A stretch of DNA of 20,259 nucleotides, taken from IMG/VR virus record IMGVR_UViG_3300042305_001591, positions 1 through 20,259 of that record; one strand, 5' to 3'. This document shows positions 1,781-14,491 of the stretch, piece by piece (position 1 is the first letter of the stretch; each line of letters begins with the position of its first letter). The notes below the pieces were generated by a model that had not been told where the DNA came from, ran no database searches, and saw only the letters and a program-made list of their open reading frames with translations. This DNA is from a virus. The translations under genes were made by a program, and so were the position numbers.

Positions 1781-3142
1781 ATGCCGATCCGAACCGACAT
1801 CCTGAGCCCGATCAACACCAACGGCGTCGATCAGTTCGACCCGGCGGCGGTGCTATCGAGCATCAACAGCGGCCTGGTCTACGACGTGCAGGCCTACGCC
1901 ACCATCCGGCCGCAGATCTCGACGCCCTTGGACGCCTCGGCGGCCGGCACGATCAGCGTGCAAGGGTCCAATGACAACGAGACCTGGTGGCCGATGCCGC
2001 AGGGCGCGGTGGATTACAGCTCGGCCGGCCTGAAGGAGCCGATCTACGTGGCCGGCATCCGGTACGTAAGGTTCCAGGTCACGACCACCAGCGGCACGGT
2101 GGAGTACAAGCTGCTGGTGACGGGCACGACCGGCGATGTTCTCGAGGTGCCGACGGCCGTCACGACCCGCGGGTACTACGGCGTCTTCAGCGCCAACGCC
2201 GACCAGACAATCGGCAACGCTACGGCCACGGCGGTGGTGTACGACACGACTGAGGAGGCCACCGGCGTCAGCATCGGCAGCCCGACCTCGAGGATCGTGG
2301 TGACCAACGCCGGCACCTACAACTTCCAGTTTTCGGCCCAGCTGCGGCACACGACTGGCGGCACCGAGCACGTCAGCGTTTGGTTCCGTCACAACGGGAC
2401 CGACATCCCGCGGAGCAACACGGACTACGCCATCTCTGGCAACAACGCCGCCGAGGTGATGGCGTGGAACTTCGTGTACACCATGGCTGCGGGTGACTAC
2501 TTCGAAATCGTCATGTCCGCCACGGACAGCGATATCACGCTGGACTACATGGCGGCGGCGACGAGCCCGACGCGACCGGCCACGCCGGCGGTGATCCTGA
2601 CCGTGGTGCAGGCGAGCTCGGGCACGCCAGGCGTCACCGGAGCGACTGGGCCGGCAGGCGCCACGGGCCCGACTGGATCCATCGGGCCAACGGGTGCGAC
2701 CGGCCCGGCTGGTGCGACAGGTCCAGTCGGTGCGACAGGTCCGACAGGGCTCACCGGCGACACTGGACCAACCGGCGCGACCGGGCCGGCTGGTGCAACC
2801 GGGCCGGCCGGCGCGACTGGACCCACCGGAGCGACTGGGCCGACAGGAGCCACAGGGCCGACAGGAGCTACAGGGCCGACAGGAGCTACCGGGCCCGCCG
2901 GCCTGGTGTGGCAAGGTACTTGGGCCGGCACGACCACCTTCTACTACGTGAACGATGCCGTGGAGTACAACGGCTCAAGTTACATCTGCATCGCCGATAC
3001 CACCGTGCCGGGCTCGAATCCCGCCACGGCGACCACCGAATGGGATCTCTTGGCCTCGAAGGGCGACACGGGATCAGGCGGCAGCGCCAGCGCGGCCGTC
3101 GATGCCGCCGGCAAGATCTATGCTTACCGCGGGTTCAGATAA
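1781..3142 (+). CDS. Collagen-like phage fibre with C1q/TNF-like middle and carbohydrate-binding end
   Basis: This 453-residue protein has at least three parts. Residues about 1-125 form a beta-rich N-terminal region. Residues about 130-280 resemble the jelly-roll trimerisation fold of C1q/TNF-like heads. Residues 281-373 are 31 uninterrupted Gly-X-Y triplets, mostly GPT, GPA and GAT, as in bacterial and phage collagens that form trimeric rods. After the rod, residues about 374-425 have the W-x-G-x-W ... Y ... V-x-Y-x-G-x-x-Y pattern of small carbohydrate-binding modules (CBM5/12-like) found in phage fibres. The order suggests a trimeric fibre that displays a glycan-binding tip. The last four 18-bp repeat units are almost identical at DNA level, so the rod length can change by slippage. 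No good ribosome site precedes the ATG, so translation may be coupled to the gene ending 3 bases upstream. Confidence 0.85.
2621..2899 (+). repeat. Collagen-type Gly-X-Y coding repeats
   Basis: Thirty-one in-frame 9-base units encode Gly-X-Y triplets. Synonymous sites vary through the first two thirds. The final four GPT-GAT pairs are nearly identical 18-bp copies, which points to recent expansion. The repeats explain the long open frames on the opposite strand here, which encode runs of Gly-Pro-Val-Ala and are not genes. Confidence 0.9.
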
Positions 3143-6862: not shown

Positions 6863-7146
6863 ACCCATGGGCGGCCATCGCGGGTGCGAGCAAGTGGGTG
6901 AGCTGCACCTCGGCAACGGCCCAAGAAGCCGCCAAGAGGGCCAGCGTGTGCGGGGCCTGCCCGAGCCGGGTCATCGTCCGCGTCCGCGGCACGAACCTCC
7001 AGGCGGCTTTCTGCGGCCCGCCCATGGACCCGCGCGAGGACACCTGCGGATGCCTGGTGCAGTGGCGGTCTGGCGGTCTGGCGGTCTGGCGCCCTGCTGG
7101 CAAGACGACCTGCGAGAGCGAAGGCTGCCCTGCGGGCCACTGGTGA
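6859..7146 (+). CDS. Small Cys-rich (zinc-ribbon-like) protein
   Basis: The ATG at 6859 overlaps the previous stop (ATGA) and gives 95 residues. An upstream in-frame start is less likely because it would overlap the neighbour by about 90 bases. Cysteines fall at C16, C31-x2-C34, C52, C63-x-C65, C85 and C90, with H94 near the end, a spacing that suggests two metal-binding knuckles. An 8-bp unit is repeated 3.5 times inside the gene (7063-7090). Because 8 is not a multiple of 3, gain or loss of a unit would shift the frame and remove the last Cys/His pair. It is the last gene of the late module. Function is not recognised. Confidence 0.6.
   Translation: MNPWAAIAGASKWVSCTSATAQEAAKRASVCGACPSRVIVRVRGTNLQAAFCGPPMDPREDTCGCLVQWRSGGLAVWRPAGKTTCESEGCPAGHW
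7063..7090 (+). repeat. 8-bp tandem repeat (TGGCGGTC, 3.5 copies) inside a gene
   Basis: Three perfect head-to-tail copies of TGGCGGTC at 7063-7086 are followed by TGGC. They encode W69 to W77 of the Cys-rich protein. A unit length that is not divisible by 3 makes this a potential slippage-driven frame switch. Confidence 0.85.
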
Positions 7147-12195: not shown

Positions 12196-12969
12196 ATGGC
12201 AGATGACTGGATCAAGGTGCGGGTGAACCTGCACACGCACCCGAAGGTGGTGCGCATTGTGTGCGCAGTTTGTGCGCAGCTTGTGCGCGATGGGTGCGCG
12301 GCAAGTGCGCAGCGGTGCATGGTTGTCGGTGCGCTGCACCAGGTGTGGAGCCTCTTTGACGCCCACAGCCGCGACGGAATCCTCGAGGGCTACAGCCTCC
12401 AGACCGTCGATGAGCTGGTGGGAATCCCTGGCTTTTCCAATGCCATGGGCAGCGTCGGCTGGCTCACGCAGACCGATAAAGGTCTGGAGATGCGAGACTT
12501 CGACATCCACAACGGAATGGGGGCCAAGCGTCGGGCCGATCATGCAGCCCAGACACGTGTGCGCAGAATGTGCGCAACTGGTGCGCACAACTCGCGCACA
12601 GAATGCGCACCAGAGAAGAGAAGAGAAGAGAAGAGTAAGAAATCCCCCCATAGTCCCCCCAAGGGGGACGCGGGCGAAGAGCCCCCCAAGCTCATCCCGG
12701 CGTACTCCGAGGCGTTCAACCGGTTCTGGGCGCGGTACCCGCGGGCTGGTCGCCATGCCAAGGTAAAGGCCTTTGGCTATTGGCAACGAGACCAGATCGA
12801 ACGGCCAACCGAGCCGGGAAAGCCCAGCCTGGTCGAGCACATCATGCTGAACCTCGAGAAGTACATCAAGAGCAAGAAGTGGCAGGATGGGTATGTGCAG
12901 CACACCACGACTTACCTGAATCAGCGTCTGTGGGCCAATGACCCACCCAGCCCGGAGATCCCCGAATGA
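12196..12969 (+). CDS. Phage replication initiator (winged-helix N-domain, replisome-organiser-like C-domain)
   Basis: The ATG at 12196 has only a weak GAGAT site. The 257-residue product has an N-terminal domain (about residues 4-118) with the D-W-I-K-V-R ... H-P-K-V ... W-S-L-F-D-x-H-S-x-D-G ... F-D-x-H-N-G-x-x-A-K-R-R pattern of phage winged-helix initiators. A basic, Cys-bearing linker (about 119-165) follows. The C-terminal domain (about 166-250) has the F-x-x-F-W-x-x-Y-P-R ... Y-L-N-x-x-x-W pattern of phage replisome-organiser proteins. The family binds origin iterons and recruits helicase or its loader. Two iteron arrays lie within the gene itself, at residues 19-40 and in the linker 122-139, as in lambda O. 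Cys, Val and Arg choices there follow the DNA repeat. It heads the replication operon and its stop overlaps the next ATG. Confidence 0.8.
   Translation: MADDWIKVRVNLHTHPKVVRIVCAVCAQLVRDGCAASAQRCMVVGALHQVWSLFDAHSRDGILEGYSLQTVDELVGIPGFSNAMGSVGWLTQTDKGLEMRDFDIHNGMGAKRRADHAAQTRVRRMCATGAHNSRTECAPEKRREEKSKKSPHSPPKGDAGEEPPKLIPAYSEAFNRFWARYPRAGRHAKVKAFGYWQRDQIERPTEPGKPSLVEHIMLNLEKYIKSKKWQDGYVQHTTTYLNQRLWANDPPSPEIPE
12250..12315 (+). repeat. Iteron array 1: six GTGCGC units at exact 11-bp spacing
   Basis: GTGCGC begins at 12250, 12261, 12272, 12283, 12294 and 12305; the following base is A in four units and G in two. Degenerate extra units occur at 12315 and 12329. Because 11 is not a multiple of 3, the unit passes through all three codon phases (Val-Arg, Cys-Ala, Ala-Gln), so selection on DNA and not protein is the likely cause. 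One unit per helical turn would put all binding sites on one face. Confidence 0.88.
12559..12613 (+). repeat. Iteron array 2: five TGCGCA-type units at exact 11-bp spacing
   Basis: TGCGCA begins at 12560, 12571, 12582 and 12604, with CGCGCA at 12593, so all five share an 11-bp register. TGCGCA is palindromic, suited to a dimer or to binding in either orientation. The array lies in the linker-coding part of the initiator gene and is followed at once by the purine tract. Confidence 0.88.
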
Positions 12970-13490
12970 CGACCACCAAGACCATGCCCACCGTGACCGC
13001 CACCAAGCCGGCAGCCATTGAGCCCGAAGAGGTGACAATCCTGGCCACCCTGCTGACTGGCGACGAGACTGTGAGGCTCTGGGCCCGCCGCATGGGCATC
13101 TCGAGCGACGTGATGAGCCACCCGCGGCTCCAGGAGCTCTACGACGCGCTGCTGCTTGGCTCGAACGTGCACGAATCGGTCAGGCACATGGCCGTGATCG
13201 AGCGGCCCCTGCCAGATCACTGCGCACCGCACCGCACGCTCTTCACCGCGGCCATGTACTACAGCGGCATGCCGGGCTTTGAGGGCAGGCTGATGGCCTT
13301 CCAGCGTGCGGCACGCCGCCGGCTAGACCGGTGGGCACCGCAAGTGCTTCGGCACATTGCCAAGCGGATCGAGGAGGGCAAGGCCGACAAGGATGCGTTG
13401 CACGGTGCCGAGCTGCTTGCCTTCGCCGCTTGGACGCCACAACATACCGGGCCGTGGGTCTGGAACCCCGGCGAGGAGGTGACCAAGTGA
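12966..13490 (+). CDS. Replication-module protein, possibly a DnaB-N-like domain
   Basis: This 174-residue protein has its ATG overlapping the initiator stop. After a Thr/Pro-rich leader (about 20 residues) it is helical. Its first helices (P-E-E-V-T-I-L-A-T-L-L ... H-P-R-L-Q-E-L-Y-D-A-L-L) recall the N-terminal domain of DnaB helicases, where an E-x-x-V-L-x-x-L-L helix is followed by a H-x-x-I-Y-x-A-I helix. It stands directly before a RecA-fold ATPase, the order of the two halves of DnaB. The likeness is weak, and a helicase loader or a small helper protein is equally possible. It ends with an AGGAGGT site (13474-13480) that serves the next gene. Confidence 0.55.
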   Translation: MTTTKTMPTVTATKPAAIEPEEVTILATLLTGDETVRLWARRMGISSDVMSHPRLQELYDALLLGSNVHESVRHMAVIERPLPDHCAPHRTLFTAAMYYSGMPGFEGRLMAFQRAARRRLDRWAPQVLRHIAKRIEEGKADKDALHGAELLAFAAWTPQHTGPWVWNPGEEVTK

Positions 13491-14491
13491 ACGTGCCGAA
13501 TGACTGGAATGACTTTCCGTCCTGGGTGGACCGCAAGGCCATCGAGGAGAACCTAGCCAAGCACCGGTCCCCGGCGGACCTGATGACCGGCCGTATTGAC
13601 GGCATCATCGACGGAACCATCAGGCCGGTGGCCACGCCCTGGCCGGCGTTCGACGACATCAAGGCGGCCATGCCTGGCACGATCAACGTGGTGTGCGGCG
13701 ACCCCGGCAGCGCCAAGAGCTTCCTGGTGCTGCAGCTGATGGCCCATGCCCATCGTGCCGGCGTGCCCGTGGCGCTGCTCGAGCTTGAGTGCACCCGCGA
13801 GTGGCACCTGATGCGGTACCTCGCCCAGCTCTCGAGCGAGCCGCAGGTCACCAACCTCGACTGGATCGCGGCCAACCCCGAGCGCATCCGCAGCCTCATG
13901 AACCTGCACCGCAGCAGCCTCAACAGCCTGGGCAACGTCATGGACGTGGCCGATGGCAAGCTCCTGACGCACCGCGACGTGCTGCGGTGGGCTCAGGCCA
14001 AGCTCGAGCAGGGCGTCAAGGTGCTGGCCATCGACCCGATCACCGCCATGCAGCCCAGCGAGAAGCCGTGGGAAGACGACCAGAACCTCATCACCGGCCT
14101 GCGGCGTCTGCTCGAGCGGCACCATGCCGCCGGGTGGCTGGTGACCCATCCCAAGAAGGGCCGCAAGACCGAGATCTCGATGGAGGTGCTGGCCGGCGGC
14201 GCCGCCATCAGCCGGTTCACCGACGTGGTGCTCTGGCTTGAGCGCCGCGAGCGGCCCGAGACTCACGTGGTGTTCGGCAAGCGGCGGTGGGACGGGACGG
14301 AGACCGAGGACCGGCACCAGGACATGGTGCGAGTGCTCAGGGTGCTCAAGTGCCGCGACGGCGTGGCCGCCGGCCGAAAGCTCAGTGTCATGCTCAACCC
14401 GACCAGCCTGACCATCGACGTGAAGGGCTGGATCAAGCGGATCGAGATCAAGGACGAGGATGATGCCACGGCCGTGGACTGTGGCTGGTGA
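13487..14491 (+). CDS. RecA-fold AAA ATPase of the replication module (RepA/DnaB-like)
   Basis: The start is GTG 13487, six bases after a perfect AGGAGGT and overlapping the preceding stop (GTGA). The 334-residue product has a Walker A at residues 71-78 (G-D-P-G-S-A-K-S, with Ala where Gly is usual) and a Walker B at 179-184 (V-L-A-I-D183-P). A conserved T-H-P-K-K-G segment near residue 220 and a later basic region also fit RepA/AAA_25-type hexameric ATPases. These proteins act as replicative helicases or helicase-like motors at phage and plasmid origins. Upstream genes supply an initiator and a possible N-terminal partner, so it is probably the phage helicase or loader. The C-terminal 40 residues are basic and then acidic. 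Confidence 0.78.
   Translation: MNVPNDWNDFPSWVDRKAIEENLAKHRSPADLMTGRIDGIIDGTIRPVATPWPAFDDIKAAMPGTINVVCGDPGSAKSFLVLQLMAHAHRAGVPVALLELECTREWHLMRYLAQLSSEPQVTNLDWIAANPERIRSLMNLHRSSLNSLGNVMDVADGKLLTHRDVLRWAQAKLEQGVKVLAIDPITAMQPSEKPWEDDQNLITGLRRLLERHHAAGWLVTHPKKGRKTEISMEVLAGGAAISRFTDVVLWLERRERPETHVVFGKRRWDGTETEDRHQDMVRVLRVLKCRDGVAAGRKLSVMLNPTSLTIDVKGWIKRIEIKDEDDATAVDCGW

Follow-up and report, generated by a model that had tools for sequence, protein, structure and literature searches.

In phage lambda, the iterons bound by the initiator lie within the O gene, upstream of an AT-rich segment that is required for unwinding, and in Stx phages extra iterons lengthen O by added residues (PMC7466680). An origin inside its initiator gene, and a gain of iterons that lengthens the initiator, are therefore already known. 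An active origin, oriJ, is also present in the Rac prophage (PMC3945230).

The stretch of viral DNA analysed here (the window; 20,259 bp) has a comparable arrangement: helically phased iterons lie inside a gene of an initiator family, and an easily melted purine and AT segment lies beside them, which together support the in-gene origin plan put forward in a preliminary description of this DNA. Judged from the sequence, this element is probably (at about 0.86) a phage replication origin within its initiator gene, where the initiator would bind the arrays and the adjacent tract would open.

Iteron clusters and purine tract in the initiator gene

The components of the locus and its neighbours are as follows.

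12196-12969, plus strand: initiator gene, 257 aa, with phrog_2509 and phrog_9474 matches and an AlphaFold2 model
12250-12310, plus strand: cluster A, six GTGCGC sites at 12250, 12261, 12272, 12283, 12294 and 12305, all forward, in 11-bp phase
12274-12306, plus strand: 33-bp insertion (three iterons, 11 codons) relative to the relatives L114 and epsilon15; placement within the repeat approximate
12329-12334, plus strand: seventh cluster A site, GTGCGC, where relatives have a reverse GCGGAC (gene position 101)
12559-12564, plus strand: cluster B iteron GTGCGC, forward
12570-12575, plus strand: cluster B iteron GTGCGC, forward
12581-12588, unstranded: cluster B central palindrome GTGCGCAC, dyad centre 12584.5
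12594-12599, minus strand: cluster B iteron GCGCAC, reverse
12605-12610, minus strand: cluster B iteron GCGCAC, reverse, abutting the purine tract
12612-12643, unstranded: purine tract (24 nt) with AT-rich tail, the proposed unwinding element and least stable 32-mer
12644-12667, unstranded: C6-N5-C6-AA-G5 element following the tract
12966-13490, plus strand: 174-aa ORF between initiator and ATPase, without Pfam or PHROG match
13484-14491, plus strand: AAA_25/DnaB-like helicase or ATPase of the replication module (PF13481, E=4e-10; phrog_239, E=2.5e-18)

The N-terminal half of the initiator (residues 1-164) matches phrog_2509, a replication initiation protein family (E=9.2e-42), and phrog_9474 is its second family match (E=8e-34). 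AlphaFold2 predicts a winged-helix N-terminal domain, a basic linker and a low-confidence C-terminal part, the N-terminal models consisting of two helices, a strand, two further helices and two strands, in that order, at pLDDT ~90 across most of the domain. Used alone in Foldseek, the N-terminal model gives weak matches to winged-helix regulators (best E=0.04), and the full-length model is uninformative; Pfam and NCBIfam searches gave no family for this domain, and a PDB sequence search with the initiator returned no match. The C-terminal part varies among relatives, and Pfam places a DnaT domain in five of 39 family members and Phg_2220_C in one, which suggests module exchange at the origin. 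The initiators of the window and of its relative L110 are alike as far as the purine tract (~12640) and diverge just beyond it, so that the conserved unit appears to be the N-terminal domain plus the origin, to which differing loading modules are attached. A homologue of the downstream ATPase lies near the initiator gene on the contig of L114, the closest initiator relative lacking the insertion.

We note several other features of the window. The segment 15202-16098, downstream of the replication module, finds no alignment in four otherwise 95-99.9% identical phage records (L001, L002, L104 and L107) and is a replaced cassette. An 8-bp tandem repeat, TGGCGGTC, is present in 3.6 perfect copies at 7063-7091 within overlapping ORFs and is possibly a frame-changing repeat, and collagen-like Gly-X-Y repeats at 2620-2895, in the ORF at 1781-3142, may belong to a tail-fibre-type protein.

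The iterons begin 54 bp inside the initiator coding sequence and run to codon 138. Cluster A falls in the part that encodes the predicted winged-helix domain and cluster B in the part for the linker; the purine tract comes next. Every coordinate of the six-unit GTGCGC chain given in the preliminary description is borne out, as are the five positions of its second cluster, but the latter units are not direct repeats; two forward sites, a central palindrome in which GTGCGC (12581) overlaps its reverse complement GCGCAC (12583), and two reverse sites form a perfect dyad about 12584.5 (12559+12610 = 12570+12599 = 12581+12588). The total of eleven iterons also omitted the seventh cluster A site, at 12329, which lies 24 bp past the sixth.

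These arrays far exceed chance. There are seven copies of TGTGCGC in the 20,259 bp, every one within the two clusters. A single hexamer recurs six times in a row at exact 11-bp spacing, and no chain longer than two arose when the gene was dinucleotide-shuffled 1000 times. The view that protein selection cannot account for the 11-bp array is upheld, since none of 5000 synonymous-codon shuffles that preserve the protein reaches the observed 13 sites (null maximum 11) or 11 lattice pairs (null maximum 6; p <= 2e-4). The same test is significant in all six relatives tested, each with its own word (p <= 4e-4).

The segment at 12612-12643 is the least stable among the 20,228 32-mers of the window and holds its sole purine run of at least 15 nt. 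A purine tract had been described here at 12612-12642, and is present, but uninterrupted purines extend only from 12612 to 12635 (24 nt) and are followed by TAAGAAAT to 12643; the C6 runs reported at 12644, 12655 and 12682 are all found. In family genes the tract ACCAGAGAAGAGAAGAG comes after the final reverse iteron, and different phages translate it in different frames, three in all: TREEKRREE, (L/A)PEKRREE and (Y/D)QRREEK. The scan was conditioned on the tract DNA, and its informative parts are this frame diversity and the sequence upstream. In the 110 bp upstream of the tract at 76 loci, the best-repeating hexamer spacing is 11 in 39, 12 in 11 and 23 in 13, and shuffled sequences give a flat distribution.

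Of 81 tract loci, 15 have a pair of C5+ runs downstream of the tract; in the background set, such a pair occurs in 33 of 5844 tiles of 150 bp. Pairs of C5-7 runs stand directly 3' of the tract in the window and in L011, L045, L059, L084, L129, L131, L168 and others, with a short G run next in about half. We also note four loci (L099, L103, L100 and L101) that encode other replication-type proteins, whose N-terminus is not recognisably of this type, with the same GCACCAGAGAAGAGAAGA tract; the words preceding it in this set are GATATCA and GGCGTCA at 11 bp, and GTGAC in L101.

Relatives, iteron words and selection on the DNA

The plan of two iteron clusters and a tract recurs in more than 100 distinct phage and prophage genes, including those of epsilon15 and phiPSA1 and YdaU of Rac. 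The lattice in the nearest clade has spacings of 11 bp (forward-forward), 13 bp (forward-reverse) and 11 bp (reverse-reverse), and most of 79 relatives carry cluster A at F55, F66, R79 and R101 and cluster B at F334, F345, R358 and R369 (forward, F; reverse, R), exactly the sites found in epsilon15. Site orientation is plain in relatives with the word GTCCGC because it is not self-complementary. The window and L110, both with GTGCGC, form a supported clade (99) with L114, which has GTCCGC; the cluster B site offsets (0, 11, 24, 35 and 46) are alike in the window and L114, and L110 is off the lattice by one base (forward-reverse, 12).

A single-protein search of genome contigs with the window initiator gave no match, and a second contig scan with an alignment of the window and L110 proteins gave three loci, one of which (Achromobacter piechaudii, L290) has a GTCCGC lattice. 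A DNA search of viral contigs for GTGCGC in forward-forward-reverse order mainly retrieved unrelated arrays that are GC-rich or intergenic, and the initiators recovered were near-copies of the window, L110 and one more (L137), another GTGCGC gene without the 33-bp insertion. GTGCGC arrays in 11-bp phase also occur outside recognisable initiator genes in L150, L154, L160 (one contig), L134 and L164.

The repeat word varies by lineage (GTCCGC, GTGCGC, GTAACGC or GTCACGC) and is identical in both clusters. Over 101 non-redundant genes GTAACGC is found in 36, GTCCGC in 31 and GTCACGC in 14, with rarer words in others, these counts being descriptive as the types come from a list compiled after inspection. 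Agreement between clusters A and B is close: the mean numbers of sites of a gene's own type are 3.3, 6.5, 2.1 and 2.5, against at most 0.29 for any other. L114, 52% identical over the protein, has GTCCGC where the window has GTGCGC, and all eight comparable sites (three in A, five in B) have switched base with orientation correct. The probability of this is ~1e-6 as a hand product (0.213^5 x 0.133^3) of the C-to-G (0.213) and G-to-C (0.133) rates outside the arrays in the alignment of L114 and the window. In the genes compared, a change of word is a change of nearly all copies together. On the initiator N-terminal tree, which has few columns and many unresolved forks, iteron type requires 25 changes, against a shuffled mean of 54.7, and none of 200 shuffles is as low. 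It is visible in the sequences themselves that the iteron word co-varies with the lineage of the initiator and that it co-varies between clusters.

The protein follows the word. The residue within a G-x-A motif encoded by cluster A is N in every one of the 29 GTAACGC-type genes that show the motif and H in all nine of GTCACGC/GTCACA type, and the aligned Ser and Pro codons of L114 carry GTCCGC, in keeping with the earlier suggestion that the Cys/Val/Arg-rich segments are a by-product of the DNA repeat. The preliminary description as a whole would have been refuted by homologous initiators that keep these amino acids and lose the DNA periodicity; the relatives do the opposite, retaining the 11-bp lattice with amino acids that differ according to the word.

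Synonymous diversity was compared across a set of 51 distinct epsilon15-like genes that do not differ in length. Third-position diversity at 4-fold sites is 0.084 in iterons and 0.473 elsewhere (one-sided Mann-Whitney p=4e-7, all iteron sites), and at 2-fold sites it is 0.000 in the tract and 0.232 elsewhere (p=3e-5), the p-values being indicative because the genes are related. Near-frozen synonymous sites in iterons and tract, together with a tract that is read in three frames, argue that selection acts on the DNA; this selection, like the arrays, their lattice and symmetry and the low stability, can be read from the sequences compared.

The 33-bp insertion lies within the predicted DNA-binding domain. 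According to the AlphaFold2 models, cluster A codes for the first helix, the turn and the beginning of the second helix; the insertion falls in the turn region between the two. Counting from the conserved Trp of a WIK motif to the helix-2 Trp, 95 of 101 genes have 35 residues, and the window and L110 have 46. Inside a structured domain, multiples of 33 bp alone keep both the reading frame and the 11-bp phase, a rule (11-bp helical unit by 3-bp codon) that puts the growth of such an origin under the joint constraint of DNA geometry and the genetic code.

Proposed mechanism and competing explanations

A plausible scenario, drawn by analogy with lambda O (PMC7466680, PMC5043065), is that the N-terminal winged-helix domain of the initiator binds GTGCGC(A) words, one per helical turn, which would place all bound copies on the same side of the helix. 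The two-fold symmetric cluster B points at the neighbouring tract (12612-12643), which would then open, and the C-terminal part of the initiator and the downstream ATPase/helicase would be brought to the opened DNA. From the same analogy we infer binding by the initiator itself, melting of the tract and a helicase step, with loading through the C-terminal part and a partner protein. The cumulative GC skew of the window has its minimum at ~11-12 kb, lending weak support to an origin there as the change is small, and the 20,259 bp contain no DnaA box, which is neutral for an origin. The Rac YdaU gene belongs to the same initiator family and Rac has an active origin, so oriJ may be this in-gene element.

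Several other explanations of the arrays can be weighed against an in-gene origin. They could be operators, for initiator autoregulation or for another phage regulator, with the origin elsewhere; phased operator arrays exist and the initiator could repress its own gene. We consider this improbable, as the sites extend from 54 bp into the coding sequence to codon 138 and abut a conserved low-stability tract that an operator array leaves unexplained, and neither a repeat scan nor a hexamer-chain scan found a further helically phased array in the window. Slightly less probable still is that the words form a nucleic-acid hairpin (an RNA attenuator, or a single-strand or cruciform signal) and are not protein sites. 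The forward and reverse order of cluster B does yield strong predicted hairpins in epsilon15 (z=-6.4), L114 (z=-5.3) and the window (z=-4.1), and a change of word on both arms would preserve pairing. However, the window has only forward sites in cluster A, the cluster A of L114 folds weakly (z=-1.5), forward and reverse sites are often unequal in number (L084 cluster B has three forward and one reverse), and a hairpin needs neither 11-bp phase nor a word shared with a cluster ~270 bp away.

Explanations without a role for the DNA fare worse. Protein-level selection for Cys/Val/Arg-rich segments could be invoked because several of these residues are common to the window and L110, but it is contradicted by the fixed-protein codon shuffles and by the other residues that occupy the same lattice in relatives, and is very unlikely to have made the repeat. 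A functionless tandem repeat made by slippage is scarcely credible: slippage can produce such repeats, and 33-bp steps maintain frame, but frozen synonymous sites, the concerted switch of word across clusters and the lattice in distant relatives all contradict it. Chance repeats are contradicted by the dinucleotide and synonymous-codon shuffles.

If the element is an in-gene origin, it permits base-resolution origin prediction for many temperate phages and prophages, including epsilon15-like phages, Rac and many metagenomic phages. A more speculative proposal, which we regard as possible though not favoured, is that the origin writes part of its own reader: in the models, cluster A encodes part of the winged-helix domain that would bind cluster A, and a change in iteron word or number would then also alter the domain. 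Were this so, the initiator family would amount to a record left by nature of specificity switches that an initiator and all of its binding sites made in concert. The concerted switch of the word across separate sites raises the question of how all of these switch together when some sites encode the initiator.

Comparison with known systems

The likeness to lambda O and ori-lambda is one of layout and not of detectable homology, and the Pfam family Phage_rep_O matches neither the window initiator nor any of 39 family members. In both systems iterons lie inside the initiator gene, with an easily melted segment (in the window predicted, at 12612-12643) right beside them. The lambda iterons are longer and each is an inverted repeat, whereas those of the window are 6-7-bp words at 11 bp, arranged as two clusters and followed by a purine-biased tract. 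One of these clusters lies inside the predicted DNA-binding domain, for which we found no description in lambda in the open-access literature. Lambda also has the helicase loader P beside O, whereas the window has the 174-aa ORF and then the AAA_25/DnaB-like ATPase, with no P homologue identified.

Iteron plasmids of the RK2, P1 and F type differ in that the sites of the window are inside coding sequence, and Pfam finds no plasmid Rep winged-helix domain in the window initiator or the 39 family members. Origins of Gram-negative PICIs resemble the window in having two iteron sets with an AT-rich region, but in PICIs the AT-rich region lies between the sets and the origin comes after the pri-rep gene (PMC6092414), whereas both sets in the window precede the tract and are within the gene.

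In the open-access literature we found no earlier account of the epsilon15 and YdaU origins, the lattice, the two-cluster plan, word switching or the three-frame tract, and the inspected records of the epsilon15, SPN1S, phiPSA1 and Rac relatives carry no origin annotation. These relatives (phrog_2509, phrog_9474) share with the window a homologous initiator, iterons in comparable places and the same tract, and differ from it in having the word GTCCGC or GTAACGC and in lacking the 33-bp expansion.
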